From Bacteroidales bacterium (GTDB taxonomy: Bacteria; Bacteroidota; Bacteroidia; Bacteroidales; UBA932): 64,000 bases of DNA. Position 1 is the first letter of the stretch, and each line of letters begins with the position of its first letter. The notes beneath the pieces were generated by a model. The model was not told the DNA's origin. It saw only the letters and a list, made by a program, of their open reading frames with translations, and made no database searches. Shown here one piece after another: positions 5,041 to 38,325 of the stretch. The position numbers were made by a program, and so were the translations under genes. The stretch spans positions 1 through 64,000 of the forward strand of contig JAFQFD010000003.1 in the NCBI GenBank assembly GCA_017415715.1, given 5' to 3'.

Positions 5041-5057
5041 CAGAATCTACCATACAT

Positions 5058-9097: not shown

Positions 9098-9099
9098 TT

Positions 9100-14248: not shown

Positions 14249-14256
14249 TATTAACT

Positions 14257-15233: not shown

Positions 15234-16214
15234 ATGGATTTTCTGAAGAAATATTTTGCCGGACAGCTGACGCCTCAGGAGGAGGCTCAGGTGCAGGCAT
15301 GGCTTGTGGAGCACTCTGAGGACCCTCAGGTGCAGGATGCGCTTCTGGCCATAATGTCGGATATGGAGACCGAGGACATGACCGTGTCTTCGCCGGCATA
15401 TGTAAAGGTGTCAAGAAGGCTCGGCCTGGACAGGAAGAGCCGTTTTGAAAGGACAGTAAGGACAATAGGCCGCTGGGCTATGGGAATCGCCGCATGTGTG
15501 ATGCTCCCGTTGCTCGGCGCTTTTGTATATGACAGGCTCTCTGTTCCGGAACAGGCTGACTGGCTGGAACTTAAGGTCCCATATGGCCAGACTGACGAGC
15601 TGGTGCTTGCCGACGGCACACACCTGCATCTCAACGCCGGCACGCGTGTGACCTACCCGTCGGCCTTCCTTGGCAGCGAGCGCAGGGTCTTCATCGAAGG
15701 CGAGGTCTTCGCCGAGGTCGCCAGGAATCCGGAGCAGCCGTTCATCATCGCATCGGGCGATGTGGACGTGAAGGTGCTCGGCACCACATTCAATTTCAAG
15801 GCATATGACAACACGGAATGCGTGGAGCTCATCCTCCTGGAGGGCGCCGTGCAGGTGGACATCGATGCCAGCACCCGCACAAAGCAGATCCAGCTGCATC
15901 CCGGAGAGATGGTCCAGTATGACCGCAAGAGCGGCGAGATAGAGATGAAGGATTTCCGGCCGCATCTATACAAGGGATTCCACGATGACGGGTCCATCCA
16001 CTTCTTCAACCTCCGCCTTAGCGACATAGCCTCAGACCTGGAGCGTCTGTTCGGAGTGAAGGTCGTGCTTCTGGACGAGGCGCTTGCGGAAACAAGATAC
16101 TTCGCATGGTTCTCCAACAACGAGACCCTCGACCAGATTCTGGACGGCATCAATGTCGACGGCAGGATGAAGTTACGCAAGAAAGACAATGTCATCTACA
16201 TTTCGAAAAAATAG
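15234..16214 (+). CDS. FecR-family anti-sigma factor
   Basis: 326 aa. The N-terminal 80 residues are cytoplasmic (MDFLKKYFAGQLTPQEEAQV), the part that binds the sigma factor. One membrane segment follows (about 84-102, MGIAACVMLPLLGAFVYD). The periplasmic FecR domain lies at about 112-215 (VPYGQTDELVLADGTHLHLN, TTFNFKAY) and a DUF4974-type domain at about 255-325 (HFFNLRLSDIASDLERLFGV). FecR receives a signal from the STN domain of the SusC encoded 47 bases downstream and releases an ECF sigma factor. No sigma gene is adjacent; the nearest upstream one is at 4492. Confidence 0.93.
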   Translation: MDFLKKYFAGQLTPQEEAQVQAWLVEHSEDPQVQDALLAIMSDMETEDMTVSSPAYVKVSRRLGLDRKSRFERTVRTIGRWAMGIAACVMLPLLGAFVYDRLSVPEQADWLELKVPYGQTDELVLADGTHLHLNAGTRVTYPSAFLGSERRVFIEGEVFAEVARNPEQPFIIASGDVDVKVLGTTFNFKAYDNTECVELILLEGAVQVDIDASTRTKQIQLHPGEMVQYDRKSGEIEMKDFRPHLYKGFHDDGSIHFFNLRLSDIASDLERLFGVKVVLLDEALAETRYFAWFSNNETLDQILDGINVDGRMKLRKKDNVIYISKK

Positions 16215-16261
16215 CGAAAAACTATAACATAAAACAAATCATCAATTAATAACCAGATCTT

Positions 16262-19200
16262 ATGAGAAGCGATTCAACTCGAGCAGACGGCCGACTAAGG
16301 CGGTTGCTGCTGATGATTGTCTTCTGCGGACTCATGACACCTCTGTCACTGTCTGCGCAGAAGATCAATCTGTCGATGAAGAACGTGACTGTCCAGGAGG
16401 CTATCACTGCCCTGAACCAGTCAGAGAACTACTCAATCATTCTCAATGCAGACGAGGTGGACCTTGGAAAGCGCATCACAGTTTCGGCCAGAAATGCGTC
16501 TATCGACGAAGTCCTCGACCAGGTTTTCGCCGGTCAGAATGTCTCGTATGTCATTGACGGAAACAGGATTTCAGTGACCAGGAAGCAGCCGGAGCCAAAG
16601 GCTGCGGTACAGGCACCGAGGACCATCCGCGGAACCGTTACCGATTCCAGCGGAGAGCCTCTTATCGGAGCCTCTCTCCTGGTTGCGGGAACGACTCAGG
16701 GATTCCTTACGGACCTTGACGGTAAATATGAAATGACAGGCGTGACCTTCCCTGCGAAGATCATCGTGTCTTATATCGGATATGCCGATATGGAGATAGT
16801 GATGACCGGAAAGGAGCCTGCTCCATTCAACATCATGCTTGATGACTCTCAGAACGTGCTTGACGACGTAATCGTCATCGGTTACGGTACGCAGAAGAGG
16901 GCAAACCTTTCGGGTGCTGTAGGAACAGTCAGCGGAAAGGACCTCAACGCACGTCCTGTGGTTTCTGCGGCGAACGCCCTCCAGGGAGCCGATCCTTCGG
17001 TGAACATCACCTTCGGAACGGGTTCTCCAGAGTCCGGCTACAACATCAACATCCGTGGTAACCTGTCACTTAACTCGGGATCTCCTCTGATCCTCGCGGA
17101 CGGTGTCGAGGTGAGCCTCAGCCAGATCAATCCTAACGACATCGAGTCGGTGTCCGTGCTCAAGGATGCCTCTACCTGCGCCATCTACGGTGCAAAGGCA
17201 TCTGCCGGAGTCGTGCTCATCACCACCAAGGCCGGAAAGCGCGGCGACAATGCGCGCGTGCAGTACAACGGTCGCTTCGGATGGCAGACCAACACCACTT
17301 CGACCGACTTCATCAGGACAGGATATGACCATGTGATGATCGTAAACGAGTTCATGAACAACTCTTCAGACAGTACGAAGGACATCTTCCGTTACACAGA
17401 GGAGAACGGCGGACTCCAGAAGCTCTATGAGCGCAGATTCGACATGACCGAGCATCCTGACCGTCCATGGGTTGAGGTAGGCGACGACGGAAAGTACTAC
17501 TATTACGGAAACTTCGACTGGTACGGATACTTCTACAACCGCGTGCGTCCTCAGCAGGAGCACAACGTGTCTGTGTCAGGAGGATCTGACAAGATATCAT
17601 ACTATGCGAGCGGACGTTACCTCTCGCAGGACGGTATGTTCAAGGTCCAGCAGGACAAGTATACCAACTACTCGTTCCGCGCGAAGTTCTCTGCCCAGAT
17701 GTACAAGTGGCTGAAGTACTCTGCAAACATCGCATATGACTCTTCTACATATTCATATGGCGGATACTACAGCTATGAAGGCACAATTCACGCACTCCAG
17801 TCAAACATCTGTGCGGCCTTCATTCCTTACAACCCTGACGGCACCCTCGTACACTATGTAAACCAGCTCGGCAAAAACTCTCCTCTCGGAGCAGGACGTG
17901 CCGCTCACATGGGTGCAGGCACAGGTATCAACTCAAAGGCAAAGAAATATCTGACCATCTCCAACCAGGTGGACATCAAGCCTTTCAAGGGCTTCACCAT
18001 CACTGCGGCTTATGACTACCGCTTCAGGGATGTCCTCTACAAGTACCGCAACAATACATTCCAGTATTCAAGGGCAGAGGGCAAGATGGAGACCTTCACT
18101 TCAGGTTCGGTGAAGAACAGCTATCAGGAGGTCACCAGCAATTATGCGGGTCATAACCTGAACGTCTATGGAACATATGATAATTCATGGAACGGTCACA
18201 ACTTCAAGCTGACCGCCGGAGGACAGTATGAGACATATCGTTCTGTAGAACTTGATGTCAGCAATTCAGACCTCACGAACGACGAATTGAGCACATTCGC
18301 ATCTGCGACAGGCATTCCTGTAGTGACTCAGGACATCACAGCATACAAGACCCTCGGTTTCTTCGCACGTGCGAACTATGACTACAAGGGACGCTACATC
18401 GTCGAGGTCAGCGCGCGCGGTGACGGTTCGTCACGCTTCGCTCCTGGCCACCGCTGGGCATTCTTCCCTTCAGCATCGGCGGCGTGGGCGATCTCTGAGG
18501 AGGACTTCTTCGCACCTGCAAGAGGAGTCGTTGACAACATGAAGTTCCGTTTCTCTGCAGGTAGCCTCGGAAACCAGCAGGTAAGCAACTATGCATGGAT
18601 CGAGACCATCACAGGAAACAAGACCAACGACTATACATTCGACTATATCGAGAACGGAAAGTACTCAAGCATCTCAGACCCTATTTCTGACGGACTGACT
18701 TGGGAGACTGTGACCACATATGATGTCGGTCTCGACCTTTCATTCTTCGATACACGTTTCAACCTCACTGTCGACGGTTACATCCGTGATACAAAGAACA
18801 TGCTTACAACATCCCTTACACTTCCGGATGTATATGGAGCGAAGACTCCGAAGGCAAACTGCGCCGATCTTCGTACAAAGGGATGGGAGCTCACAGTTTC
18901 ATGGAATGACTCGTTCAAGCTCCTCGGTAAGCCTTTCAACTACAATGTGGGCGCAACAGTCGGTGATTATGTGACACACATCACCAAGTATCACAACCCT
19001 GACGGACTGATTTCAGAGCACTATGCTGGCAAGAAACTCGGTGACATCTGGGGATACCATGTGGACGGACTCTTCAGGACAGACCGCGAGGCTGCCGAAT
19101 ATCAGGCTGCCATCAACGACGAGGCTGTCAACAAGAGAGTATACCAGTGTACAGGTCCTTACGGAAACTACCTCCGTGCCGGTGATGTGAGATTCGCTGA

Positions 19201-19819
19201 CCTTGACGGTGACGGCAAGATCTCGGAGGGCTCAGGAACACTCGATGACCATGGCGACAAGATCATCATCGGTAACACCAGACCTCGCTACAACTACTCG
19301 TTCCGTTTCGGCTTCAACTGGATGGGACTTGACGTTTCTGCATTCTTCCAGGGAGTAGGACATCGTGACTGGTATCCTGTGGCAGGACAGTCGTCATATG
19401 ACTTCTGGGGACCATACGCATTCCCTCCTACATCGTTCATCCACACAGAGTTCTATGACAATGTATGGACAGAGACCAACAGAAATGCATACTTCCCACG
19501 TGCCCGTGGTTACAATGCTTATGCAAACGGTTCACTCGGAACAACCAACGACCGTTATCTTCAGAACCTTGCTTACTTGCGTTTCAAGAACCTGACTGTA
19601 GGATATACAGTTCCTAAGGGATGGACACGCAAGGCTAAGATAGAGCAGATCAGAGTATACTTCTCAGGCGAGAATCTCTGCTACTGGTCTCCGATCAAGA
19701 AGTATACAAAGACAATGGATCCTGAGCTTGCAGGATCATCTGGAACATCGACTGCGAATGCCGGAGTAGGTTATGCTTACCCAAGGACATTCTCTGTAGG
19801 TATTGACATCCAGTTCTAA
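16262..19819 (+). CDS. SusC/RagA-family TonB-linked outer membrane protein with STN domain
   Basis: 1185 aa TonB-dependent transporter. A signal peptide ends at about residue 33 (LSLSAQ). The STN signalling domain (about 38-108, INLSMKNVTVQEAI, FAGQNVSYVI) pairs it with the upstream FecR. A carboxypeptidase-regulatory-like domain (about 120-205, IRGTVTDSSGEPLIGASL) precedes the plug (about 215-325, VIVIGYGTQKRANLSG, SVLKDASTCAIYGAKASAGV). The rest is the 22-strand barrel ending FSVGIDIQF. It imports a ligand captured with the SusD lipoprotein encoded next. The substrate cannot be read from the sequence. The downstream enzymes point to phosphodiester-containing compounds. Confidence 0.96.
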   Translation: MRSDSTRADGRLRRLLLMIVFCGLMTPLSLSAQKINLSMKNVTVQEAITALNQSENYSIILNADEVDLGKRITVSARNASIDEVLDQVFAGQNVSYVIDGNRISVTRKQPEPKAAVQAPRTIRGTVTDSSGEPLIGASLLVAGTTQGFLTDLDGKYEMTGVTFPAKIIVSYIGYADMEIVMTGKEPAPFNIMLDDSQNVLDDVIVIGYGTQKRANLSGAVGTVSGKDLNARPVVSAANALQGADPSVNITFGTGSPESGYNINIRGNLSLNSGSPLILADGVEVSLSQINPNDIESVSVLKDASTCAIYGAKASAGVVLITTKAGKRGDNARVQYNGRFGWQTNTTSTDFIRTGYDHVMIVNEFMNNSSDSTKDIFRYTEENGGLQKLYERRFDMTEHPDRPWVEVGDDGKYYYYGNFDWYGYFYNRVRPQQEHNVSVSGGSDKISYYASGRYLSQDGMFKVQQDKYTNYSFRAKFSAQMYKWLKYSANIAYDSSTYSYGGYYSYEGTIHALQSNICAAFIPYNPDGTLVHYVNQLGKNSPLGAGRAAHMGAGTGINSKAKKYLTISNQVDIKPFKGFTITAAYDYRFRDVLYKYRNNTFQYSRAEGKMETFTSGSVKNSYQEVTSNYAGHNLNVYGTYDNSWNGHNFKLTAGGQYETYRSVELDVSNSDLTNDELSTFASATGIPVVTQDITAYKTLGFFARANYDYKGRYIVEVSARGDGSSRFAPGHRWAFFPSASAAWAISEEDFFAPARGVVDNMKFRFSAGSLGNQQVSNYAWIETITGNKTNDYTFDYIENGKYSSISDPISDGLTWETVTTYDVGLDLSFFDTRFNLTVDGYIRDTKNMLTTSLTLPDVYGAKTPKANCADLRTKGWELTVSWNDSFKLLGKPFNYNVGATVGDYVTHITKYHNPDGLISEHYAGKKLGDIWGYHVDGLFRTDREAAEYQAAINDEAVNKRVYQCTGPYGNYLRAGDVRFADLDGDGKISEGSGTLDDHGDKIIIGNTRPRYNYSFRFGFNWMGLDVSAFFQGVGHRDWYPVAGQSSYDFWGPYAFPPTSFIHTEFYDNVWTETNRNAYFPRARGYNAYANGSLGTTNDRYLQNLAYLRFKNLTVGYTVPKGWTRKAKIEQIRVYFSGENLCYWSPIKKYTKTMDPELAGSSGTSTANAGVGYAYPRTFSVGIDIQF

Positions 19820-19836
19820 TATAGGAGGAAAGAGAA

Positions 19837-21603
19837 ATGAAAAACATATTCAGATTATTGGCAGCAGCTGCCATTGCGGCAATGACCGTAGGTTGCGACC
19901 TGACTCTCTATCCTGAGGATGCCGAAAGTCCTGAGGTGTACTTCAAGTCAGAGGCGCACTTCGAGCAGTGGACTAATTATTTGTATGCGGGTCTTCTTGA
20001 CAGTCCGGATGCTGTGTCCAGATATAATGCGGATGACATGGTAGACAAGAGCATGGGAAGCATTATCATGGGACAGCGTCTTGCTTCGGACGCTATGTCC
20101 GGAAACAACGAGTGGGACTGGGACATGCTCCGCAGGATCAACTACATGCTTGCCAACTCCTCAAATTGTGAGGATGAGGCATTGAGGACAAAGTATGAAG
20201 GTATTGCATACTTCTTCCGTGCATACTTCTATTTCCAGAAAGTGATGCGTTTCGGTGACGTTCCTTATTATGACAAGGTCCTTGAGTCTACAGACGCCGA
20301 GTTCCTCAATAAAGCACGTGACGACAGAGGCTTTGTGATGGACAAGGTGATGGAGGACTTCGACAGGGCGATCGAGATGATCCCTGCGACAAAGGATGCA
20401 TACTCTGCTCGCGTGACCAAGTGGGTGGCGCTCGCAATGAAGTCACGTGCAGCCCTTTTTGAGGGTACATGGAGAAAGTACCACGGCATGCCGGATGCTG
20501 AGAAATATCTCCAGCAGGCTGTTGCGGCTGCAAAGACATTCATCGACGAGAGCGGATATGTTCTCTACAACCAGGGCGAGGAACCTTACCGTGACCTCTT
20601 CTGCAGCGACCATGCAAAGACTGAGGAAGTCGTGTTCGCACGCCTTTATCAGTTCGAGACACTCAACATCGCTAACTCGGTGCAGTTCAATATCCGCAAT
20701 GACGCTCAAGGCTTCACCCGCCGCTTCATGAACCACTACCTTATGGCTGACGGAACACGTTTCACCGACATTCCTGGACATGAGACAATGTTCTATACCG
20801 ACGAGACAAAGAACCGTGACCCTCGTATGGCTCAGACAGTCCTCTGTCCTGGCTATATAATGAAGGAAGAGACCAAACCGACTCCAAACGACATGACAGC
20901 GCTCACAGGATACGAGCCTATCAAGTTTGTATCTTCTGTCGCACACAGCGGTGCATCAAAGGGTACAATGGACTGGCCTCTCATCCGTGCTGCCGAGGTT
21001 TACCTCAACTACGCCGAGGCTCTTGCAGAGCTCGACCAGCTTGACCAGGCTGCTCTTGACGTTTCTGTAAACAAGATCCGCGAGAGAGCAAAGATGCCGG
21101 CATTGGACATGGCTGCGGCAAACGGCAATGTAGACCCTTACCTTGCTTCATGCTATCCGAGGGTAAAGGCCGGAGCAAACCAGGGTGTGATCCTTGAGAT
21201 CCGCCGCGAGCGTACCATCGAGCTCGTAAACGAAGGCTTCCGCCAGTGGGACATGCTCCGCTGGAAGGAAGGTGAGCAGATGGTGAACAAGGACAAGCCT
21301 TATTACGGAATCTATTTCCCAGCAGAGGGTCTCTATGACATGGACGGTGACGGAAAGAATGACCTCGAGATCTACACAACGACTCAGCAGAGCAAGCCTG
21401 CAGACGGACTTGTTGTCAAGAAAATCGGCTCTGACTTCGTTCTATCTGAAGGCGATCACGGCTATGTTGTGGCTTGGTCGACTCTGACATGGGAGTGGAA
21501 CGACAGAGAATATCTGTGGCCTATCCCTGCAGACCAGAGAGTCCTCACAGGAGGAGCTCTGACTCAGAATCCAGGCTGGACTGACAGTACTAACTTTAAT
21601 TAA
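19837..21603 (+). CDS. SusD/RagB-family nutrient-binding lipoprotein
   Basis: 588 aa lipoprotein (lipobox TVGC at residue 18-ish) that forms the lid of the SusC transporter. The N-terminal region with TPR-like helices (AHFEQWTNYLYAGLLDS, GIAYFFRAYFYFQKVMRFGDVPYYDK) and the C-terminal RagB/SusD signature (EIRRERTIELVNEGFRQWD, LWPIPADQRVLTGGALTQNPGW) are clear. It starts 17 bases after SusC with an AGGAGG ribosome binding site. It is slightly longer than the family average. Confidence 0.96.
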   Translation: MKNIFRLLAAAAIAAMTVGCDLTLYPEDAESPEVYFKSEAHFEQWTNYLYAGLLDSPDAVSRYNADDMVDKSMGSIIMGQRLASDAMSGNNEWDWDMLRRINYMLANSSNCEDEALRTKYEGIAYFFRAYFYFQKVMRFGDVPYYDKVLESTDAEFLNKARDDRGFVMDKVMEDFDRAIEMIPATKDAYSARVTKWVALAMKSRAALFEGTWRKYHGMPDAEKYLQQAVAAAKTFIDESGYVLYNQGEEPYRDLFCSDHAKTEEVVFARLYQFETLNIANSVQFNIRNDAQGFTRRFMNHYLMADGTRFTDIPGHETMFYTDETKNRDPRMAQTVLCPGYIMKEETKPTPNDMTALTGYEPIKFVSSVAHSGASKGTMDWPLIRAAEVYLNYAEALAELDQLDQAALDVSVNKIRERAKMPALDMAAANGNVDPYLASCYPRVKAGANQGVILEIRRERTIELVNEGFRQWDMLRWKEGEQMVNKDKPYYGIYFPAEGLYDMDGDGKNDLEIYTTTQQSKPADGLVVKKIGSDFVLSEGDHGYVVAWSTLTWEWNDREYLWPIPADQRVLTGGALTQNPGWTDSTNFN

Positions 21604-21612
21604 TGGAAGGCA

Positions 21613-24600: not shown

Positions 24601-24924
24601 GACAACAGCTCTAACAACACCAAGTTCGACCCTATCACATTTGCTGCAGTAGACCAGGCTGGTACAAAGGTATGGTTCGTTGTAGTCGACGGACGTCAGA
24701 TCAACCTTACTGACGGAGTCTGGACTTCGATGGGTCTGAAGGCTCATGAAATGATGCAGGTGGCTTCAAGGCTCGGTGCATACAACATGACACGTTTCGA
24801 CGGCGGCGGATCGACTGCAATGTGGGCGTACGCTGACGGTGCAGGTGCTCTCGTGAACACACCTTCTGATAGCAAGGGCGAGCGCAGCTGCATGAACTAC
24901 ATTTATATCCGTGCGAGGAAATAA
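21613..24924 (+). CDS. surface lipoprotein with DUF4988, GLUG repeats and phosphodiester glycosidase domain
   Basis: 1103 aa lipoprotein (lipobox LSGC). Residues about 20-170 are a coiled-coil plus DUF4988 (PL29-type N-terminal) module (DIDKSYNQLTEIKAQLETL, TYWCVNG-like strand). Then comes an Ig-like region (about 200-300) and a GLUG-type beta-helix (about 305-680; FDGQGYAIKNI, GIVGTLTDATVKNCTNNG, RTGGFVGHNSGNLSGCVN). The C-terminal 400 residues match the phosphodiester glycosidase (NAGPA/DUF2233) family: AGINTGFFDSNDGFGRG, NHAWGFTLFTDG, VVVDGR, and the signature TRFDGGGSTAMWAY near residue 1061. This family removes GlcNAc from sugar phosphodiesters in animals. Here it probably cleaves a sugar-1-phosphodiester on the cell surface. 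It sits directly behind susD. Confidence 0.85.
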   Translation: MKINNMIAFCVSVLMVLSGCNKYDDSALWDDIDKSYNQLTEIKAQLETLTSQVDMLSAVVTGGAITGITANEDGGYTVRYKGADNEEKTVVIASKDDIDTAPVLGTKEDGGVLYWTITVDRKTDYLKDVDGAKIPVAGRTPAFTIDKDGYWCVNGNPLLDADGNKVKAEGKTISVISKIETDGAGNAVLTLADGSTVTVPLFEAFNLSLFYGETEIMNKLDIEGSAVPAVVSYVIGGPAADQTIVKAMRQNGLEAAVNAADKTITLTFPEGFEEGSFAVMVVDAEGNILVRPVYVTDKAAVPDYYGIKTADDMAKFALAVNTGAPLKRFMNEEGTVVLLSDVDMTGVETYLPVGTAEFPFEGVFDGQGYAIKNIAFKTDVTSQLTAGIFGALKGTVRNLTVGADGDVWTITGTCTAGTAVAGVAATTVEGAVIENCTNNVSFDFQAEDAKDVLASIAGIAADASGLTVTKCTNNADIHVKDLANTGNGGKGLQLAGIVGYAKASSAISECTNNGDLSAPAGRGGGIVGTLTDATVKNCTNNGTIEDDKFGQHAGNTSAYGYKRMGGLVGGTSGTTSIEDCTNNGTVITHIGCRTGGFVGHNSGNLSGCVNNGNIFGLAAHNDHGAGWAAGFTTNKDNIVNCTGKGRVGDIAQKDTPEAAPHASYYNALKYQYLKRFDPEANMLDWDADSYYETEVTATKELASGLKLTSYQWKNVPRKMHILEIDLTSTALDLTTAYANDIVPNPNGNENNNNGFKIRETLSQLCERKRAEGEEVYAGINTGFFDSNDGFGRGIHIEEGEPVFVNNQGVRNSLVNHAWGFTLFTDGTASCGKKEFSGKMEIAGKEYEYYSVNDTIVRRGHKTYYANLYTSRYKEVPHSGHPELVNPLSKTALYVVAKYNSGVMTVNNGYAEATVSAIHDGRSTALDKAPYLEAADEVAIQLTGDNAAEIAAALKVGDTIKLKADVAIDGVTKPIYTLNSTMFQFLKNGKDNTGSLADNSSNNTKFDPITFAAVDQAGTKVWFVVVDGRQINLTDGVWTSMGLKAHEMMQVASRLGAYNMTRFDGGGSTAMWAYADGAGALVNTPSDSKGERSCMNYIYIRARK

Positions 24925-24942
24925 CATTCTAATAATCTAAGT

Positions 24943-27420: not shown

Positions 27421-27426
27421 ACGGTT

Positions 27427-30400: not shown

Positions 30401-32922
30401 GTATGCTTACGGCGACAATGTCAAACTACACTTCACTGAAGGATTGCGAGAACCATGGTGATGCAATAATGACCGGTGGATCATCTGCACAGGTGGGCGG
30501 TATGGTATGCCTGCTCAACTCTACTTCATGCTCAATCAGCGGTGGCGGAAATTACGGAAACGTCATAGGTGATATCGCTGCTGCCCAGACAAGCTACAAG
30601 GGACTCCTCGTGGCCAACTTCAGTAAGTTCGAGAAGGTTGAGAATGTCGTTGCAGGCGGTGGCATCGGTACATACAACGGTGGAAACTACGTGATGGAGA
30701 CCGTGACATCAGACAACTATATGACCTATATCGGAAAGTATAGCTCTGCAAATGCATCCAAGATCACCAATATCATCTTCAACGGACCAGCAGAGGAGGT
30801 TCCAGGTATCGCAACAGCGCAGGATCTGCTTGATTTCGCTGCAGCCGTGAACTCTGGTGCTTCGATCGAGAAGTGGCAGGCTAAGGACGGTGGCGTAAAC
30901 CTCCTTGCAGACATCGACCTTTCATCTGTCGAGAACTGGGTTCCTATCGGAAACGCAGTCTGCGTTCCGGGCGCTGCAGATCCTGTGATCACAGGCAATG
31001 CATGGACTGGCGTGTTCGACGGAAACGGTCGCAAGATCAGCGGCCTCAAGATGGTGGCCGCAGGTACAGAGGATGGAGCGAACTACGGACTCTTCGGAGT
31101 CCTCGCTCCGGGCGCTGTCGTGCAGAACTTCATCATCGATTCTTCATGCTCTCTCGAGGTCACTTCATCAGCGGTGACAGCAAACGGAGTCCTTGCAGGA
31201 TATGTTTACGATGCGACCATCCGTGACGTGACCAGCTATGCTCCTATGACATTCAAGGGAACTGCCGGTGACAAGAAGTTCATGAGTATGGCTCTCGTGG
31301 GTCAGGTATACTGCGAGAAGGAAGGCGTAGTGATGGACAGCTGCCACAACTATGGCGAGATTGTCGCTGAAAACACAGTGAACCTTCAGGCAGGTGCTAC
31401 AGCATACCATATCGCAGGTCTCGTGGGCTTCGCTCACGCGCTCAGCGGAGCTCCAGTGATGACTACGATTTCAGACTGCTCTAACTACGGTAACATGACC
31501 TCAGCAACTGCCCGTACCTCAGGTATCGTGGCAGCCTGCAACAGGAACATCCAGCTGAGCAACTGCGTCAACCACGGAGATCAGTTCAACACATTCCCTA
31601 AGCAGGGCGGCGGACGTCTTGGAAACATCACCTGCAACATCACTGCAGGATGTTCGATGACAGGATGCATCAACTATGGTGACCTCATCTCGACTACAGG
31701 TGCGCGTTCGGGTGGTATCGCATCCCTTACCAATACAGCCGTATTCGAGAATTGTGCGAACTATGGCGAGATCCTCTCTGATGACGCTAACCGCGGACTC
31801 TTCTGGGGATATAACGGTTCCGTACATACATGGAAGAACTGTGTTGCCGGCGGTAAGGTCGGAACATACAACAACGGCTCTCCGGTATATGATTCTTATA
31901 CTGAAGAAGAGAAGGTCAAGTATCTCGGCGTATTCAAGGCAGGCGTAGACTCTGTTCTTGAGAACATCACATACCTTGTCGGCACCACTGAGCCAGGTGC
32001 CGACGAGGGTGAAGCCGAACTCAGCATCCTCTTCATCGGAAACAGCTTCACCAAGGACGCTGTTGAGCATCTTCCAGGCCTTCTCAAGGCAGCAGGCCTT
32101 GACAAGGTACAGCTCACTCATATGTACTATGGCGGACGCCTCGTATCTGAATATTATGCCGGCTGGAGCACATCAAGCGACTACAAGTGCTATGAGTGCG
32201 GTCCTGGCGCTACAACATGGACAGAGAGCACAGGCAAGACCCTCGAGCAGGTGGCGGCAAGCCGCAGTTGGGATATCATCACCATCCAGGAGCATACAGG
32301 CAATGCTGCGGCATGGACATGGAATTCTACTGCGCAGACCAACCTCCAGGGTATGATCAACAGCGCCAAGGCTACCCAGACAGGCGCAATGCCTAAGTTC
32401 TACTACATCATGTCGCAGGCATACTTCAACATGGGCAAGATCGGAAGCGGTTCGCAGCCTTATATGACCTGGACAGACCAGGCAGGCATGTGGGACGTGA
32501 TCGCGGCCTTCGGAAAGAACGTGATGGCCAATGTGTCGTTCGACGGCATCATCTCTACAGGTGTCATGCTCCAGAACCTCCGCACATCACCTCTTGACAA
32601 CGAAATGAACCTCACCCGTGACGGTTATCATATGGATAACGGAATCTCACGCTACGGTGCGGCCTGCACAGTGTTCGAGACTCTCATCACTCCGAAGTAT
32701 GGAATCAAGCTTGACAACAATTCATACCGTTATGCAGTGGAGAACACCAGCACTTCAGCTTACTGCACCCCGGTTACCGATGCAAACGCACCGGTAGCTC
32801 TCAAGGCGGCAAGGTATGCAATCGAGAATCCATATGAAGTGACCGACATGTCCGATGTCAAGGAAGACCTTCCTGGCAACAGCATCGGAGATGTGGACTA
32901 TGAAGAAGGAAGCAAAGAATAA
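27427..32922 (+). CDS. large surface lipoprotein: DUF4988, three tandem GLUG modules, C-terminal DUF4886 SGNH-like domain
   Basis: 1831 aa lipoprotein (Cys in LACACMFDDS). DUF4988 occupies about 20-180. Three tandem copies of a roughly 410-residue module start near residues 298, 712 and 1124, each opening with a (T)A.(D/E)LVDFAA.VN.GA segment and a NDIDM...TWTPIGNG motif. From about residue 1531 the protein becomes a DUF4886/SGNH-like hydrolase: SILFIGNSFTKD (GNS block with nucleophile Ser), HMYYGGRLVSEY, WDIITIQEHTG, and RDGYHMDNGISRYGAA holding the likely catalytic Asp-His. The SGNH fold usually removes acyl groups or hydrolyses esters. The start may be ATG 27427 or ATG 27433. It is part of the SusCD operon. 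Confidence 0.82.
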   Translation: MIMKRFFRYIMVAVIGMLACACMFDDSELNSQLDDIKNRIEKLQGRIDAMNSQLTAMSYITSGNVITSVTQDSDGKYVITYLDSKNQEKTVVLATMDQMINVPQLGVELDPQNNLYYWTVTVDGETSYLMNNGEKVPVSGYAPKVSVDAEGYWTVNGERLKDANGLPIQANDGESCVFKSVELNENGDLVITQGNGSVITLPVQKVLNLTLSTLINTTVVDIAQPLEVAYDVTGANAEGAMVAVAEAEGVNAAINREKKVITVTFPEGFKSGYMIALANDFAEHTVLRPVFFEKAKSDKIEIRTADELVQFAADVNAGTGAQLMTAMLMNDIDMKDVATWTPIGNGKFIGSVSGGNQHVSTYEGAAFHGTFDGQGYSIKNLKLVADLTADQTAYGLFGILDGATVKNLTIGAPEGDSSELSFHSANGSDAGVIAGAVMSSTIENCVNYAPMHARGTGVDNVRATMGAFAGFVYADEEKGGSVLKDLVNYGTITAEGDKNTKNGATSVMAAGIAGITNGTTNITTVRNYVVNCINYGDMTSSVPRTSGIIAAVNQFTDVERCKNYGDQVNSNAGTRVGMITATMTFRTMLKDCENHGDAIMTGGTGAQVGGLVCLLNSNTECVISGGGNYGMIISDVAASPSGYKGTLVANFSKFEKVENVVAGGSVGTYNGGEYVMETITEDNYMDYIGKYSATNAEKITNIIFMGESAKPVGIATAQDLVDFAAAVNSGASLEAWQDAQGAVVLLNDIDMKDVTSWTPIGNGKFHGSVTGGNAHKSTYEGAAFQGTFDGKGYSIRNLKMTADLTAEDRVYGLFGILDGATVKNLTIGAAEGDASELTFHAADTLDAGVFAGVMMASAMENCVNYAPMYVKGNSTNTRRTTMAAFAGFVYANETTGSTLKNLVNYGSIKAEGDANTTNGAASVMAAGIAGITNGTTTTTTRNVVYNCVNHGNMTSSVPRTSGLIAAINQYTDVELCKNYGDQTNSNSGTRVGMLTATMSNYTSLKDCENHGDAIMTGGSSAQVGGMVCLLNSTSCSISGGGNYGNVIGDIAAAQTSYKGLLVANFSKFEKVENVVAGGGIGTYNGGNYVMETVTSDNYMTYIGKYSSANASKITNIIFNGPAEEVPGIATAQDLLDFAAAVNSGASIEKWQAKDGGVNLLADIDLSSVENWVPIGNAVCVPGAADPVITGNAWTGVFDGNGRKISGLKMVAAGTEDGANYGLFGVLAPGAVVQNFIIDSSCSLEVTSSAVTANGVLAGYVYDATIRDVTSYAPMTFKGTAGDKKFMSMALVGQVYCEKEGVVMDSCHNYGEIVAENTVNLQAGATAYHIAGLVGFAHALSGAPVMTTISDCSNYGNMTSATARTSGIVAACNRNIQLSNCVNHGDQFNTFPKQGGGRLGNITCNITAGCSMTGCINYGDLISTTGARSGGIASLTNTAVFENCANYGEILSDDANRGLFWGYNGSVHTWKNCVAGGKVGTYNNGSPVYDSYTEEEKVKYLGVFKAGVDSVLENITYLVGTTEPGADEGEAELSILFIGNSFTKDAVEHLPGLLKAAGLDKVQLTHMYYGGRLVSEYYAGWSTSSDYKCYECGPGATTWTESTGKTLEQVAASRSWDIITIQEHTGNAAAWTWNSTAQTNLQGMINSAKATQTGAMPKFYYIMSQAYFNMGKIGSGSQPYMTWTDQAGMWDVIAAFGKNVMANVSFDGIISTGVMLQNLRTSPLDNEMNLTRDGYHMDNGISRYGAACTVFETLITPKYGIKLDNNSYRYAVENTSTSAYCTPVTDANAPVALKAARYAIENPYEVTDMSDVKEDLPGNSIGDVDYEEGSKE

Positions 32923-32933
32923 TCGACAGCGTT

Positions 32934-35015
32934 ATGAGAAACAGAATATTTTCCATCATGGCCGGCCTGCTCGTGATAGCAGGCTGCGCCAAGGAGGTTG
33001 CTCCAGAGCACTCTCCAGCAGATTCTGACTTCCTTGTCCTGAAAGCGGACTGGGCAGATCTCACAAAGACTGACATGAATGAGGGAAACAGCACCTGGGA
33101 GGCAGGTGACAAGATCACCGTTGTATATGACGGAGCGGCATATGAGTATGTTGCCGAGTCGGCAGGTGAGACCACCACATTCACAAGTACTGCAGGTATC
33201 GCATCATACGATCCTGCAAAGTCCCTCGTGGCATATTATCCTGCAACAGACGTTGCCGGAACTGTAAAAGTGGAGTCTGAGAAGGCTCTCACATTCAAGG
33301 AAGGAACACAGACGAACACATCTTGCGCACCGCTCGTGGGAACACCGAAGGATGACAACCTCCAGAACGGTGCCCTCAGCGTCGTGTTCAGCAATGTGTT
33401 CTCGGTTCTCGAACTTCGCATCGATGCAGGCGAACTCGCCGGAACAGCAAAGTCGATCAAGGTCGAGCCTGCCTCTGCTGAAGATTTCGAAGGATACCTC
33501 AGCTTCACCGGAACAGTGGACCCTGTGACTCTCGCAGTGACTCCGGCGGAGAACGGAACAGGCAACAGCCTCACCCTCAATCTCCCTGAGAATGCAGACC
33601 CTAAACAGGCCATGACCCTCAAGTTCCCTGTAGGCCGTTTCTCGACCGCCAGCGGACTCAAGATCACTTTCACCACCAGCGAAGGAACATATTCAAGAAG
33701 CGTCTACAAGACAGGCGTGACTTCATATGTTCAGAAGGGTGAGTACTTCTATGCAAAGCACCTTGCAAAGCCAATGTATGCGTTTGCAAATGCCGGCGGC
33801 ATCGCTACCGCTGAAGACCTCGCAGCATTCGCTGCAGCGGTCAATGCGGGCGAGAGCATCGTGAAGTGGATGAACGCAGACGGAAAGGTTGTTCTTCTGA
33901 ATGACATCGACATGTCTTCTGTCACTTCATGGACTCCGATCGGTGCTTCTTCATTCACATGGGCAAGCAATGCGCTTACATGCGATTCAGGAAAGATGTT
34001 CACCGGATACTTCGACGGACAGGGCCATGCGATCAAGAACTTCAAGATGGTATGCGACAATGCAACCGCAGGCGCTGCATGGGGACTCTTCGGAGGCCTT
34101 GGCGCAGGTGCGGTAGTCGAGAATCTTGTGATTGACGAGACATGCTCGCTGGAGCTCAAGTCCACAGTCCAGACAGACTGCGGAGTTGTTGCCGGAATGG
34201 TATGGGATGCACGCGTGCGCAACATCACCAACAACGCATCGATGACATTCAGCGGCACCTGCAGCAGCAAACGTGTAACCATGGCCGTAGTAGGTATGGC
34301 ATTCGCCGAGACAGACAGTACTGTCGTGAAGAATGTTGTGAACAACGGAAAGATTGTGGCTTCTGACGGAGGTTCGAACCAGAACGGCGGCAATGCAATA
34401 CAGGTTGCAGGTATCCTCGGATTCGGTACCAATCATTTGAACTCATCAGAGATAGTTGCTGTCCTTGACTGTACCAACAATGGTGACATGGAGTCTGCTA
34501 CAGCGCGTACTTCAGGTATTGCTGCAGCATGCAACAGATACACTCACCTTCGCGGCTGCAAGAACTATGGAGACCAGATCAACTCGTTCAACGTGAAGAC
34601 TGAAAGCGCCGGCTCTGCAGCCCGCATCGGCAACCTTACATGTATTACAGGTGCCGGTTCTTCTCTGTATGACTGCACCAACTATGGAGACGTCATCTCG
34701 ACAACCAAGGGAGCCGTGGCAGGTGTCATCTGCCTCGTCAACAATGATGATGCAGTATTCGAAAATGTTGCAACATACGGCAGGGTGATCACAGACAGAG
34801 CGGTAAAATCTTACTGTGGCTCATTCTTCGGACAGTGCAACAAGAAGGCTACATTCACCAACTGTGTATGTGGTGGTGCGTTCGGTACTTATAACAACGG
34901 CGACTATCAGGTTACAGAGCTTACAGCGGACAACTACTGGGATTACATCGGCCAGATCGGTGCAAACGGTGTGAATGCTACGAAAGAAAATATCAAGTTC
35001 GGTACCATTCAGTAA
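32934..35015 (+). CDS. surface lipoprotein, fimbrillin-like N-terminus plus GLUG-type module
   Basis: 693 aa lipoprotein (lipobox IAGC). The first 285 residues lack DUF4988 and look like the fimbrillin/Mfa-like beta-sandwich family of Bacteroidales (LTKTDMNEGNSTWEAGDKI, VAYYPATD, VFSNVFSVLEL). The C-terminal 400 residues carry the same module as the previous gene (GIATAEDLAAFAAAVNAGE, LLNDIDMSSVTSWTPIG, FDGQGHAIKNFKMV). It is the last gene of the SusCD operon, starting 12 bases after its neighbour. I infer a surface binding protein; no catalytic motif is seen. Confidence 0.7.
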   Translation: MRNRIFSIMAGLLVIAGCAKEVAPEHSPADSDFLVLKADWADLTKTDMNEGNSTWEAGDKITVVYDGAAYEYVAESAGETTTFTSTAGIASYDPAKSLVAYYPATDVAGTVKVESEKALTFKEGTQTNTSCAPLVGTPKDDNLQNGALSVVFSNVFSVLELRIDAGELAGTAKSIKVEPASAEDFEGYLSFTGTVDPVTLAVTPAENGTGNSLTLNLPENADPKQAMTLKFPVGRFSTASGLKITFTTSEGTYSRSVYKTGVTSYVQKGEYFYAKHLAKPMYAFANAGGIATAEDLAAFAAAVNAGESIVKWMNADGKVVLLNDIDMSSVTSWTPIGASSFTWASNALTCDSGKMFTGYFDGQGHAIKNFKMVCDNATAGAAWGLFGGLGAGAVVENLVIDETCSLELKSTVQTDCGVVAGMVWDARVRNITNNASMTFSGTCSSKRVTMAVVGMAFAETDSTVVKNVVNNGKIVASDGGSNQNGGNAIQVAGILGFGTNHLNSSEIVAVLDCTNNGDMESATARTSGIAAACNRYTHLRGCKNYGDQINSFNVKTESAGSAARIGNLTCITGAGSSLYDCTNYGDVISTTKGAVAGVICLVNNDDAVFENVATYGRVITDRAVKSYCGSFFGQCNKKATFTNCVCGGAFGTYNNGDYQVTELTADNYWDYIGQIGANGVNATKENIKFGTIQ

Positions 35016-35037
35016 TCGCAGTTTCCGAGAAAAGTCA

Positions 35038-35045
35038 TATATTTG
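35038..35045 (+). promoter_or_regulatory. -7-like box for the glycerophosphodiesterase operon
   Basis: TATATTTG fits TAnnTTTG and lies 77 bases before the ATG at 35122, ahead of a strong hairpin. No clear -33 box. It would make the 35122-38279 genes a separate transcript from the SusCD operon. Confidence 0.35.
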
Positions 35046-35059
35046 ACAGACTTTTGAGT

Positions 35060-35107
35060 ATTTCGGTCATCTCGGGTGTATTATTAATATGCCCGTATGA
35101 CCGAAAT
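35060..35107. promoter_or_regulatory. strong hairpin in the leader of the GDPD operon
   Basis: Perfect 11-bp arms ATTTCGGTCAT (35060-35070) and ATGACCGAAAT (35097-35107), with CGGG/CCCG extending the stem inward. It ends 14 bases before the ATG at 35122. There is no T-run after it. It may end the SusCD transcript, protect the leader or control translation. Confidence 0.5.
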
Positions 35108-35121
35108 CCAAATAACCACAT

Positions 35122-36054
35122 ATGAGAAAGACATTATTTATTCTGATATCAGCCATGGCTGCGCTCATGGCGGTATCATGCGCTCCGAAGGAGCAGTATG
35201 CCAACAGGGCGGAGAAAATCCTTGCCGAGATCAACGACCCTAATTCCGAGTATGTCGTGGTCATCTCCCACAGAGGTGACTGGAGGAATTATCCGGAGAA
35301 TTCCATTCCGGCGATAGAGTCGATCATCCGCATGGGTGCGGACATGATGGAGCTTGACGTCAAGATGACAAAGGACAGCGTACTTGTCCTGATGCATGAC
35401 AAGACCATAGACCGCATGACCAATGGAAAGGGCTTGGTCAGCGACATCACATATGACTCGCTCATGACATTCAACATGAAGCGCGCTCATAATGTGGCTA
35501 CAGACTCGATCAAGGTGCCGACCCTCCGCGAGGCACTTCTCTGCTGCAAGGACAGGATCCTTGTCAATGTAGACCATGCATATCCTTACTATAAGGAGAT
35601 TGTGGAACTTGCAAACGAGCTTGGCGTGACAGGCCAGGTGCTCATGAAGGGCAAGAGCAATATCGACAAGGTGAACGAGGACATGGCAAAGCATGAGAAC
35701 AATCTTCTGTACATGCCTATCATCGACATCAACAAGCCTAAGGGCAAGGCCCTCTTCGCCGAGTATCAGGAAAGAGGAGTGGTGCCTATGGCATATGAGG
35801 TGTGCTGGCAGTATCCGGGTGAGGAGCTTGACAATTGCATCGCGACCATCCTCGAGACCGGCTCAAAGGCATGGGTGAACACCCTGTGGCCGTCTCTCTG
35901 CGGAGGCGTCGGCAACGACGATGACGCGGCATTGGATGCAGCCGATCCTGCAGATGTATACGGACAGTATCTGGACAAGGGATTCACCATGATCCAGACA
36001 GACCGTCCTGAACTGCTTATAAACTATCTCCGTTCAGTAGGAAGACACGACTGA
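35122..36054 (+). CDS. glycerophosphodiester phosphodiesterase, lipoprotein
   Basis: 310 aa with a lipobox (LMAVSCAP). It hydrolyses glycerophosphodiesters to sn-glycerol-3-phosphate and an alcohol in the known family. The GDPD motifs are present: HRGDWRNYPENSIPAIES near residue 54, MMELDVKMTKDSVLVLMHD (the E.D and H metal/catalytic set), DRMTNGKG. The C-terminal part has WVNTLWPSL and a FTMIQTDRPELLINYL ending typical of GDPDs. The next gene starts within its stop codon (TGATG), so the two are coupled. Together with the transporter at 36855 it resembles the logic of the E. coli glpTQ operon. Confidence 0.93.
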   Translation: MRKTLFILISAMAALMAVSCAPKEQYANRAEKILAEINDPNSEYVVVISHRGDWRNYPENSIPAIESIIRMGADMMELDVKMTKDSVLVLMHDKTIDRMTNGKGLVSDITYDSLMTFNMKRAHNVATDSIKVPTLREALLCCKDRILVNVDHAYPYYKEIVELANELGVTGQVLMKGKSNIDKVNEDMAKHENNLLYMPIIDINKPKGKALFAEYQERGVVPMAYEVCWQYPGEELDNCIATILETGSKAWVNTLWPSLCGGVGNDDDAALDAADPADVYGQYLDKGFTMIQTDRPELLINYLRSVGRHD

Positions 36055-36836
36055 TGAAAAGATTAATACTCATATTGATGGCCGGACTGCTCATGAGCGG
36101 TTCGGCTTTCGGCTGGGGAAGGGAAGGTCATGAGACCATAGCCAGGATTGCAGACAACAACCTTAAGCCTTCTGCAAGAAAGGTTATCGAAAAATACCTT
36201 GGAGACCACTCCATAGTATATTATGCCAAGTGGATGGATGAATATCGCCATACACCGGAGTATGCCTTCACGACCAAGTGGCATGTGGCAAGGGTGGACG
36301 AAAACCTCAAGTATTCTCCTTATCCCGAGGCGGGAGATGCCGTTTCTGCCATAAACGATGCCGTAGAGCTCCTGAAGGACTACAAGAGCCTTCCGGATTC
36401 GACGGTCGCAGTAAACATCAAGTACCTTCTGCATCTGGTGGGTGACATGCATTGCCCTGCGCATGTATATTACCTCGGCAGGAACCAGGACTACAAGGTG
36501 AAGTTCGGCGGCGGATACATCAAGCCTGTAAAGGAGATGAAGATCCATACCGTATGGGATGAGGCTGCCATTCAGTCTTCACGCATATGGTCTGTGAGCG
36601 AGTGGGCCGAGGAACTCGACAGGAAGTCCGCCAAGGAGATCAAGGCCATTGTGGCCGGAACTCCTCAGGACTGGCTTGAGGACAACGCCCGCAGATGCAT
36701 CGTCCAGTTTGACATGTCAGCTCCTGGTGACAATGTCGCCCAGGACTTTGTCAACGAGGCCCTTCCTCTGATCGAGACGCAGATCCTCTATGCCGGCTAC
36801 AGGCTTGCAGCTGTGCTGAACATCCTTTTCAAGTAA
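36054..36836 (+). CDS. S1/P1-nuclease-family zinc enzyme, secreted
   Basis: 260 aa with a signal peptide (cut before WGREGH, giving the mature N-terminal Trp that ligates zinc in this family). Remaining ligand motifs are in order: KWMDEYR, KWHVARVDE, LLHLVGDMHCPAHVYY and HTVWDEAAI. The fold is shared by P1 nuclease, which cuts single-stranded nucleic acid at the 3' side, and by zinc-dependent phospholipase C. The usual DIHQPLH core is altered to DMHCPAH. Being between a GDPD and an organophosphate transporter, it may act on phospholipid head groups or other phosphodiesters rather than nucleic acid (inference). It overlaps the GDPD stop by one base. Confidence 0.85.
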   Translation: MKRLILILMAGLLMSGSAFGWGREGHETIARIADNNLKPSARKVIEKYLGDHSIVYYAKWMDEYRHTPEYAFTTKWHVARVDENLKYSPYPEAGDAVSAINDAVELLKDYKSLPDSTVAVNIKYLLHLVGDMHCPAHVYYLGRNQDYKVKFGGGYIKPVKEMKIHTVWDEAAIQSSRIWSVSEWAEELDRKSAKEIKAIVAGTPQDWLEDNARRCIVQFDMSAPGDNVAQDFVNEALPLIETQILYAGYRLAAVLNILFK

Positions 36837-36854
36837 ACCAACCTAAATTTATAT

Positions 36855-38279
36855 ATGCTGAATAGAATAACCAATTTTTACAAGGTAAGCCAGCCTTCTG
36901 CTGAAAAGCTGCCGGCCGATCAGGCGGACAAGCAGTACAAGAAGTTGAGGTTCCAGGCTTTTGTTGCCGCTACATTGGGCTACAGCCTTTATTATGTGTG
37001 CCGCACGTCACTCAACGTGATGAAGCAGCCGATCATTGATTCGGGCGTGCTTGACGCCACCCAGCTCGGTATCATCGGAGCCTGCCTCTACTGGACATAT
37101 GCAGTGGGCAAGTTCGTGAACGGCTTCCTTGCAGACTACTGCAACATAAAGAAGTTCATGGCTACCGGTCTGGTAATCTCGGCATTCGCAAACTTCGTAA
37201 TGGGCATGCTGGGCGTATGGAACGGCGTCGCCGGCATAGCCAGCTCGCTGATGTTCGTGATGTTCGCCATCATGTGGACCATCAACGGATGGTCTCAGTC
37301 TATGGGCTCGCCACCAGCTATCATTTCGCTTTCGAGATGGTATCCTCTCAACATACGAGGTACATATTACGGCTTCTTCAGTGCTTCACACAACTTCGGA
37401 GAGGGACTCTCGTTCATCTTCGTTGCAGCACTCGTTTCTGCAGCCGGATGGCAGTGGGGATTCTTCGGAGCGTCCATAGCAGGTGCTCTCGGAGTCACTC
37501 TCATAGCATTGTGGCTGCATGACACACCGGAGAGCAAGGGACTCGCACCGGTTGAGGTGCTCGCAGGCGAGAAGACTCAGGAAGAGCTTGACGCCGAAGC
37601 TGCGGAGAAGGCTGCGCAGACAGCCGACAGCGCAGCGGAGACCAAGCGCATACAGAGAGCGGTGCTCCGCAATCCGGGCGTATGGATCCTCGCGCTTGCC
37701 AGCGCATTCATGTATATGAGCCGCTATGCCATCAACGAGTGGGGAATGTTCTTCCTCCAGAAGACAAAGGGCTTCGAGCTCATGGAGGCGTCTACCATCA
37801 TCGCGGTCAACACGATAGCCGGCATCCTCGGCACCGTGTGCGCCGGATGGATATCCGACACCCTCTTCAAGGGAGACAGGAAGTGGCCTGCGCTGACAGC
37901 CGGCATCATGGAGGCTGTAGCTCTCGCACTGTTCTTCTACGGAGGTGACTCGTGGGCAGTGAACATCATAGCTATGGTTCTCTTCGGTATCGCAATCGGA
38001 GTGCTCATCTGCTTCGTCGGAGGCCTCATGGCCGTTGACCTCGTGCCAAGGAAGGCGACAGGTGCCGCCCTCGGCATCGTAGGCCTTGCCTCATACGCGG
38101 CAGCCGGCCTGATGAACATCATCAGCGGTATCCTCATAGACGGAATGGCTACACCGGACCCTGTCTCAGGAGAACTTGTCTACGACTTCACATACGTGTC
38201 AGTATTCTGGCTCGGGGCGGCGATAATCTCCTTCCTCCTCCCGATTCTGAACTGGGGCAGAAAGAAAATGGAAATCTAA
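36855..38279 (+). CDS. MFS organophosphate:phosphate antiporter, GlpT/UhpC type
   Basis: 474 aa inner membrane protein with about 12 membrane segments, OPA branch of the MFS. Motifs include YSLYYVCRTSLNVMKQP in helix 1, YAVGKFVNGFLADY between helices 2 and 3, NGWSQSMGSPPAIISLSRWY and GTYYGFFSASHNFGEGLS. It has a charged central loop rich in Ala/Glu (about 225-260) instead of a normal short linker. Family members exchange glycerol-3-phosphate or hexose phosphates for phosphate; UhpC is a sensor. The position after a GDPD favours glycerol-3-phosphate uptake. A very strong terminator follows its stop. Confidence 0.88.
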   Translation: MLNRITNFYKVSQPSAEKLPADQADKQYKKLRFQAFVAATLGYSLYYVCRTSLNVMKQPIIDSGVLDATQLGIIGACLYWTYAVGKFVNGFLADYCNIKKFMATGLVISAFANFVMGMLGVWNGVAGIASSLMFVMFAIMWTINGWSQSMGSPPAIISLSRWYPLNIRGTYYGFFSASHNFGEGLSFIFVAALVSAAGWQWGFFGASIAGALGVTLIALWLHDTPESKGLAPVEVLAGEKTQEELDAEAAEKAAQTADSAAETKRIQRAVLRNPGVWILALASAFMYMSRYAINEWGMFFLQKTKGFELMEASTIIAVNTIAGILGTVCAGWISDTLFKGDRKWPALTAGIMEAVALALFFYGGDSWAVNIIAMVLFGIAIGVLICFVGGLMAVDLVPRKATGAALGIVGLASYAAAGLMNIISGILIDGMATPDPVSGELVYDFTYVSVFWLGAAIISFLLPILNWGRKKMEI

Positions 38280-38325
38280 ATAAATAAAGAAATCCGCACG
38301 TTTTCGTGCGGATTTCTTTATTTAT
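38280..38325 (+). terminator. strong intrinsic terminator
   Basis: A 21-bp perfect stem (core AAATAAAGAAATCCGCACG 38282-38300 and its complement 38305-38323) around a TTTT loop. The stem ends in A/T-rich sequence, so it can work from either strand. It closes the GDPD-S1/P1-GlpT operon. Confidence 0.92.

Follow-up and report, generated by a model that had tools for sequence, protein, structure and literature searches.

A SusCD-type locus of a Bacteroidales bacterium with a putative role in the use of phosphodiester-linked material

The DNA analysed here, referred to as the window, is a stretch of 64,000 nucleotides from a Bacteroidales bacterium of the UBA932 lineage (assembly GCA_017415715.1, contig JAFQFD010000003.1, positions 1 to 64,000 of the forward strand), in which a SusC/SusD pair is encoded in one run with a phosphodiester glycosidase-type lipoprotein (PDG), an SGNH hydrolase, a GDPD-family lipoprotein, an S1/P1-type phosphoesterase and a GlpT-like carrier. 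On balance, this run is probably a SusCD-type locus for the capture, degradation and import of glycerol-phosphate and sugar-1-phosphate diester material. This reading is carried by the gene set itself, by catalytic motifs that are conserved, by the folds predicted for NAGPA and EEP, and by the fact that the set recurs, both in relatives and in records that bear the names of other genera. Indeed, this recurrence bears out the view of the original prediction, made from the letters of the stretch, that the SusCD, PDG, SGNH, GDPD, S1/P1 and GlpT genes form one locus.

Gene content and catalytic features

Between 15234 and 38279, open reading frames (ORFs) matched to Pfam and TIGRFAM profiles lie on one strand in the order FecR, SusC, SusD, PDG, DUF4988/repeat lipoprotein, DUF4988/repeat/DUF4886 lipoprotein, repeat lipoprotein, GDPD with DUF4996, S1/P1 and GlpT-like MFS carrier (Table 1). 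The spacing is tight, with 6 to 18 bp separating successive ORFs from SusC through 35015 and a single base shared by the GDPD and S1/P1 genes; the widest gap from SusC to GlpT, of 106 bp, is the one upstream of GDPD. The susC and susD genes are adjacent (TIGR04056 and PF07980; 17 bp between them), as expected of a SusCD-type utilisation locus, and co-located with them are families of secreted degradative enzymes (PDG, SGNH, GDPD and S1/P1), their cell location being judged from N-termini. A classical polysaccharide utilisation locus would also hold a glycoside hydrolase or polysaccharide lyase, and no Pfam match to either was found within 15234-38279, as had been predicted. In gene content, with SusCD, phosphodiesterase or phosphomonoesterase families and no match to a carbohydrate-active enzyme (CAZyme), the locus agrees instead with the phosphate utilisation systems (PUS) discussed below. 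The family profiles agree with the original prediction on the genes that it had named, their positions and their common strand; its inventory had left out the large lipoproteins starting at 24943 and 32934 and the repeat region common to four ORFs.

The PDG, which starts at 21613, carries a NAGPA domain (PF09992) at residues 903-1099 with 65.4 bits against a cut-off of 25; DUF4988 and a single Glug motif are found in the same protein. The profile match, the predicted fold and the conserved motif all agree with assignment to NAGPA. The DGGGS sequence is invariant across 32 PDG sequences, likewise the DG of the VDGR stretch, and these motifs align with those of 3ohg and NAGPA. Loss of the catalytic residues, which the original prediction had put forward as grounds for abandoning it, is not what is found, the NAGPA fold and the DGGGS motif both being kept. 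The same genome holds nine NAGPA domains, and other NAGPA genes (L079, L081, L082 and L083) adjoin different SusCD pairs; one of these NAGPA-SusCD clusters also encodes an SGNH hydrolase of the GxDLY type, with a metallophosphatase nearby.

The GDPD matches 3i10 (E 1e-55) and has a PF03009 domain in which the HR, PEN, ELD and MHD residues are present in the 3i10 alignment, and the S1/P1 protein, aligned with 8qjl, retains its His and Asp residues. We take the His, Glu and Asp residues of the former and the His and Asp residues of the latter to be catalytic. For the carrier, the best solved-structure match is GlpT (1pw4, E 4e-45), with alignment of the Arg, Lys and His positions that presumably have a functional role in GlpT. 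It lies below all equivalog cut-offs, scoring 208.9 bits against 632.55 for TIGR00712, and is hence described as GlpT-like only.

In the EEP lipoprotein, N10, E42, D189, N191, D285 and H286 (the N, E, GD.N and SDH motifs) are invariant in 30 sequences, and the AlphaFold model has a pLDDT of 90.7. It is here that a further explanation has to be considered. NAGPA enzymes uncover mannose-6-phosphate from sugar-1-P-6-mannose, and by the same chemistry the PDG would expose mannose-6-phosphate on a phosphoglycan, for example fungal phosphomannan, from which the EEP enzyme would then strip the phosphate. The EEP profile does match 4c1r, named as a mannosyl-6-phosphatase, but weakly (E 8.7e-4 and 0.0047) and behind LINE-1 endonucleases; moreover, no mannosidase was matched in the locus, and phosphoglycan trimming leaves the GDPD and the GlpT-like carrier unexplained, which makes it improbable.

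The repeat regions of the ORFs starting at 21613, 24943, 27427 and 32934 are mutually related, with pairwise identities of 29-45%, and, from the single Glug match and the repeats, they are probably beta-solenoids. The 24943 product shares 39% identity with the repeat region of the PDG, and is 42% and 48% identical to its counterparts in Bacteroides xylanisolvens XB1A and in an Alistipes locus (L193), respectively. The 27427 product, of 1831 residues, has DUF4886 at residues 1534-1770 and matches 4i8i (E 6e-17), and the 32934 product shares 45% identity with it across 403 residues. No enzyme domain was found by family search in the 24943 and 32934 lipoproteins. Aspartates soon after the lipobox cysteine, read here in the light of the surface-export signals of Bacteroidetes, are present in the 21613 (CNKYDD), 24943 (CGYDD) and 27427 (CMFDD) products, whereas the GDPD and EEP proteins differ, such that the first three would be exposed at the surface and the latter two would be periplasmic. 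Further, the STN domain of SusC, FecR and the extracytoplasmic function (ECF) sigma factor together suggest control across the envelope.

Conservation among related genomes

One related locus (L139), from the named loci described below, matches the window system in gene order and strand for all of its 12 genes except the 32934 gene, which is missing; the 11 run sigma, EEP, FecR, SusC, SusD, PDG, DUF4988, DUF4886, GDPD, S1/P1 and GlpT; another (L143) has this arrangement minus S1/P1. The order from sigma to GDPD is also that of genomes G155 and G057 (L095-L098). In G185, one contig (L108) runs from the sigma gene to DUF4988 in the stretch examined, with the DUF4886 SGNH gene farther along, and a second (L109) holds a repeat lipoprotein followed by GDPD, S1/P1 and GlpT. 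From SusC to GlpT the G185 proteins are 88-93% identical to those of the window, a single repeat region (73%) excepted; for sigma, EEP and FecR the identity is 71-76%. In more distant members of the genus (G005, G054, G149, G050, G179, G139 and G202) much of the set is present and reordered, and in several an additional EEP is fused to a lipoprotein. The SusCD operon and the GDPD-GlpT genes do co-occur in relatives, their failure to do so having been another ground on which the original prediction was to be given up.

The sigma and EEP genes (4492-6017) had been proposed as a lipoprotein pair that might belong to the locus. Their membership is upheld by four relatives (L095, L097, L108 and L138), in which the sigma gene is contiguous with EEP-FecR-SusC; only the EEP protein is a lipoprotein. 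In the window, EEP and FecR are separated by 9216 bp, which hold an RHS cassette, against 75-89 bp in these relatives. The cassette (DUF6443, RHS repeats and Tox-URI2) is missing from the EEP-FecR site in the four relatives checked, and from this comparison it is evidently an insertion that lies outside the system.

In a sample of 200 same-genus genomes, the PDG was found in 31, with 37 matches, and its partners are concentrated in the same genomes. GDPD is present in 30 of the 31 PDG genomes and in 86 of the 200 overall (13.3 expected; hypergeometric ~7e-12), the DUF4886 SGNH protein in 23 and 30, respectively (4.7 expected; ~1e-17), and EEP, at E<=1e-30, in 29 and 81 (12.6 expected; ~3e-11). 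For EEP, the overlap is 20/31 against 22/200 with the best 23 matches, and 21/31 against 27/200 when those of at least 53% identity are added. Physical proximity was judged from all matches to PDG (37), DUF4886 SGNH (33), GDPD (95) and S1/P1 (10), from the best 60 to GlpT, weaker ones being omitted, and from the best 23 to EEP (55-100% identity) plus 7 weaker ones hand-picked for lying on PDG contigs, and so biased. Among the 37 PDG matches, DUF4886 SGNH lies within 40 kb in 18 cases, EEP in 15 (best 23 matches), GDPD in 13, GlpT in 9 (best 60 matches) and S1/P1 in 4; 24 of the 37 have at least one partner at this distance (25 if the hand-picked EEP matches are included). Mantel correlations of 0.70-0.88 between the PDG and its neighbours were not used, given that shared descent would give the same values.

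Recurrence in loci named as other taxa

When the genome_contigs collection was scanned with a PDG-domain alignment, by way of two short peptide patterns, a further 70 named loci were obtained, which constitute a sample; they are not independent of the same-genus genomes, at least 17 of the 70 being apparently common to both. Most are metagenome-assembled genomes titled Bacteroidales or Bacteroidia, many from the guts of ruminants and other herbivores. Counts are of hidden Markov model matches over all frames, longest-ORF calling having sometimes put an opposite-strand ORF in place of the real gene (GDPD in L099 and L193). SusC or SusD is found in 58 of the 70 loci, and in 36 of the 40 that are at least 19 kb long, and in 45 of the 70, of which 64 have any upstream sequence, the ORF immediately preceding the PDG is SusD. 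The association of the PDG with SusCD exceeds chance. Among the other genes, the repeat region occurs in 69 loci, DUF4886 SGNH in 39 and EEP in 32. A MINPP-type histidine phosphatase, not seen among the scanned genes of the window, is found in eight (L162, L163, L164, L165, L168, L176, L192 and L202).

Six of these loci are named to genus or family level, namely Bacteroides xylanisolvens XB1A (L199), Bacteroides sp. GM023 (L195), Alistipes (L193 and L200), Rikenellaceae (L191) and Proteiniphilum (L194), and, judged by their record names, would belong to other genera. GDPD is present in five of the six, and PDG, SusC and GDPD occur together in XB1A, GM023, Alistipes L193, Rikenellaceae and Proteiniphilum. 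The SusC and SusD proteins of the window are 58% and 60% identical to those of XB1A, in which the run is PDG, DUF4988, DUF4988, GDPD, SGNH (Lipase_GDSL_3), FecR, SusC, SusD and GlpT, with a divergent sigma gene. Neither EEP nor S1/P1 was seen within the XB1A run, and an EEP search in the four genomes of L199, L195, L193 and L194 gave no match. In L191 and L193, S1/P1 comes after SusD, divergent from the run of PDG, DUF4988, DUF4886 SGNH and GDPD.

Proposed function

From the enzyme set, the substrate would be one that contains sugar-1-phosphate and glycerol-phosphate diesters as well as esters. The large DUF4988/repeat lipoproteins would bind it at the cell surface, where the SGNH hydrolase would take off the esters and the PDG would cleave the sugar-1-phosphate diesters; the pieces would be imported by SusC/SusD, whereupon the EEP, GDPD and S1/P1 enzymes would complete phosphodiester and phosphoester cleavage, and the GlpT-like carrier would import glycerol-3-phosphate or another phosphoester. 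The locus would be switched on through the STN domain of SusC, FecR and the ECF sigma factor.

As to the identity of this substrate, polymers of glycerol phosphate or glycosyl phosphate made by other bacteria, such as teichoic acids and phosphate-linked capsules, can be put forward tentatively, and lipid-derived head groups are about as likely. A narrower proposal, that of a dedicated teichoic-acid utilisation locus with which gut Bacteroidales would feed, through SusCD, on the phosphate-linked wall polymers of Gram-positive neighbours, is rather doubtful; in it the PDG would cut the sugar-1-phosphate link, the GDPD would free glycerol-3-phosphate and the GlpT-like carrier would import it.

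Several observations weigh against the proposed function. The co-occurrence figures and their hypergeometric values ignore shared ancestry, and 13 of the 37 PDG matches, some on short contigs, lack any listed partner within 40 kb once the hand-picked EEP matches are set aside. In the named loci, GDPD is found in 15 of 70, and in 11 if the count is restricted to the 40 loci that reach 19 kb; GlpT is found in 12 of 70 and S1/P1 in 8, although these later genes are undercounted by flanks of at most 10 kb; in G155 and G057 neither S1/P1 nor GlpT lies behind GDPD. The EEP subfamily is indistinct, fold and profile searches having given mixed EEP matches, with sphingomyelinases ranked 5 and 22 in one fold search and none among the 50 matches listed in another. 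The C-terminal domain of GlpD (PF16901), a candidate sink for glycerol-3-phosphate, was not found in the genome, which is 86% complete. Moreover, another NAGPA gene of the same genome adjoins GH3 and GH123, and hence the NAGPA fold alone is no proof of a phosphodiester substrate.

Only 12 of the 95 GDPD matches and 3 of the 15 GDPD-GlpT pairs lie within 40 kb of a PDG, and since the great majority (83 and 12, respectively) do not, GDPD, with or without GlpT, is a module with an independent existence, which the PDG-SusCD locus has included. The original prediction had regarded the finding of the GDPD operon without SusCD elsewhere as evidence against it, and this is partly what is seen, both in these counts and in six GDPD-GlpT neighbourhoods (L059, L065, L127, L128, L130 and L133) that gave no BLAST match to the SusC or SusD of the window. 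Both this dispersal and the GH3/GH123 neighbourhood would suit an ordinary polysaccharide utilisation locus, in which the PDG acts on a phosphate-free glycan and GDPD, S1/P1 and GlpT are either chance neighbours or a general-purpose module. Chance would, however, need to have been repeated for GDPD to stand beside the PDG in five of the six loci with genus or family names, S1/P1 recurs next to SusD in two of them, Alistipes L193 and the Rikenellaceae locus L191, and there is the want of any matched glycoside hydrolase or lyase in the locus; such a locus is quite improbable.

Genomic setting

The locus sits downstream of rpsD-rpoA-rplQ (290-2401), as it does in G155, G057 and G185, and in G013 (L070) a GDPD occupies this site. 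Beyond it, past a proton pyrophosphatase gene, is a heparinase II/III-like ORF (40728-42563), which was set aside as a member, G155 having a sufB-like gene directly after the pyrophosphatase gene. The hairpin preceding GDPD (z -4.82) has no second copy in the genome and is absent from L109, where GDPD follows the previous ORF after 14 bp; by this short gap it is lineage-specific, and a conserved riboswitch was set aside. In the terminator scan, the stem after the GlpT stop was called on the minus strand alone, and it is at most a candidate operon end.

Table 1. Features of the window assigned to, or lying within, the locus
Feature	Coordinates	Strand	Basis
ECF sigma factor, presumed locus regulator	4492..5040	+	PF04542/PF08281
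EEP-family (endonuclease/exonuclease/phosphatase) lipoprotein	5058..6017	+	PF03372; ATG 5058 favoured over TTG 5037
RHS/DUF6443 cassette, Tox-URI2 C-terminus, two small downstream ORFs; read as not a system member	6146..14871	+	Pfam
FecR-type anti-sigma regulator	15234..16214	+	PF04773, PF16344
SusC-type TonB-dependent transporter with STN signalling domain	16262..19819	+	TIGR04056 840 bits, PF07660
SusD-type lipoprotein	19837..21603	+	PF07980
PDG: DUF4988, repeat region and NAGPA phosphodiester glycosidase lipoprotein	21613..24924	+	PF09992
DUF4988 and repeat-region lipoprotein, no enzyme domain found	24943..27420	+	PF16378
DUF4988, long repeat region and DUF4886 SGNH hydrolase lipoprotein	27427..32922	+	PF16378, PF16227
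Repeat-region lipoprotein, no Pfam match	32934..35015	+	45% identity to 27427 ORF
Hairpin in gap preceding GDPD, lineage-specific	35016..35121	+	z -4.82
GDPD and DUF4996 lipoprotein	35122..36054	+	PF03009, PF16387
S1/P1-type phosphoesterase, signal peptide not lipoprotein-like	36054..36836	+	PF02265; N-terminus
GlpT-like organophosphate carrier	36855..38279	+	PF07690; 1pw4 match
Long perfect stem right after GlpT stop	38280..38325	.	terminator-like on minus strand only

Relation to known systems

The statement in the original prediction that no such system had been described was too strong, as SusCD loci with phosphodiesterases are known (PMC8115612, PMC6499787), though none with the same gene set was found in the open-licence papers searched. 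The PUS clusters of Flavobacterium combine PusCD, of which PusD is called polyphyletic, with phosphodiesterases and phosphomonoesterases and are induced on phosphate depletion (Lidbury et al., PMC8115612). In the table of that paper, FecR-like regulators are given for PUSII and PUSIII and ECF sigma factors for PUSI and PUSIII, and abundant lipoproteins are likened to polygalacturonase (helix fold). The locus of the window resembles them in having a SusCD-like pair with phosphodiesterases or phosphomonoesterases in place of CAZymes, an inner-membrane organophosphate transporter and, as in some clusters, ECF sigma and FecR-like regulators. PUS are defined by induction on phosphate depletion, the likeness of the locus being one of gene content, and the enzymes named for PUS are different ones, namely PhoA, PF00149 and PF16670, besides orphan genes for one EEP and two EndA nucleases. 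A word search of the paper gave no 'glycosidase', 'GlpT' or 'UhpT', and 'glycerophosph' in a reference only.

This likeness, extending to the polygalacturonase-like lipoproteins, is the strength of the explanation that the locus is strictly a phosphate-scavenging PUS, induced by low phosphate and gathering mixed organophosphates, such as glycerophosphodiesters and inositol phosphates from deacylated lipids, for their phosphorus. The GDPD, S1/P1, EEP, SGNH and GlpT-like proteins, as well as the accessory MINPP-type phosphatase, would suit such head groups, but the PDG has no evident role on them. The ECF sigma/FecR pair is as compatible with switching by substrate as with switching by phosphate, such genes being listed for the PUS clusters, which respond to low phosphate, as well. 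Strict phosphate scavenging is a possible explanation, well short of a probable one.

Among other known systems, 576 of the 14,713 susC/D loci in PULDB lack CAZymes and encode phosphodiesterases (Lapebie et al., PMC6499787), and the locus of the window is like these in having SusCD and phosphodiesterases without a CAZyme; they were counted by PF00149 and PF01663, neither of which it matched, and were read as possibly nucleic-acid loci. The PDG shares its fold and its DGGGS and DG motifs with NAGPA, the uncovering enzyme, and with BACOVA_00430 (3ohg); unlike them, it is fused with DUF4988 and a repeat region, and its gene lies next to SusCD. Similarly, GlpQ of Bacillus subtilis is a glycerophosphodiesterase that removes glycerol-phosphate from wall teichoic acid (Walter et al., PMC7086022), and the GDPD, a predicted glycerophosphodiesterase likewise, has in addition a C-terminal DUF4996. 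No description of the PDG-GDPD-SusCD combination was found in the open-licence literature, subscription papers not being covered, and within that literature it is the gene set, rather than a SusCD locus with phosphodiesterases, that is new.

Significance

The enzyme set of the locus is unusually coherent and, through its recurrence in the complete genome of XB1A, offers a sharp and testable prediction. In other words, phosphate-linked material may be a class of gut nutrient that glycan-centred annotation has missed.

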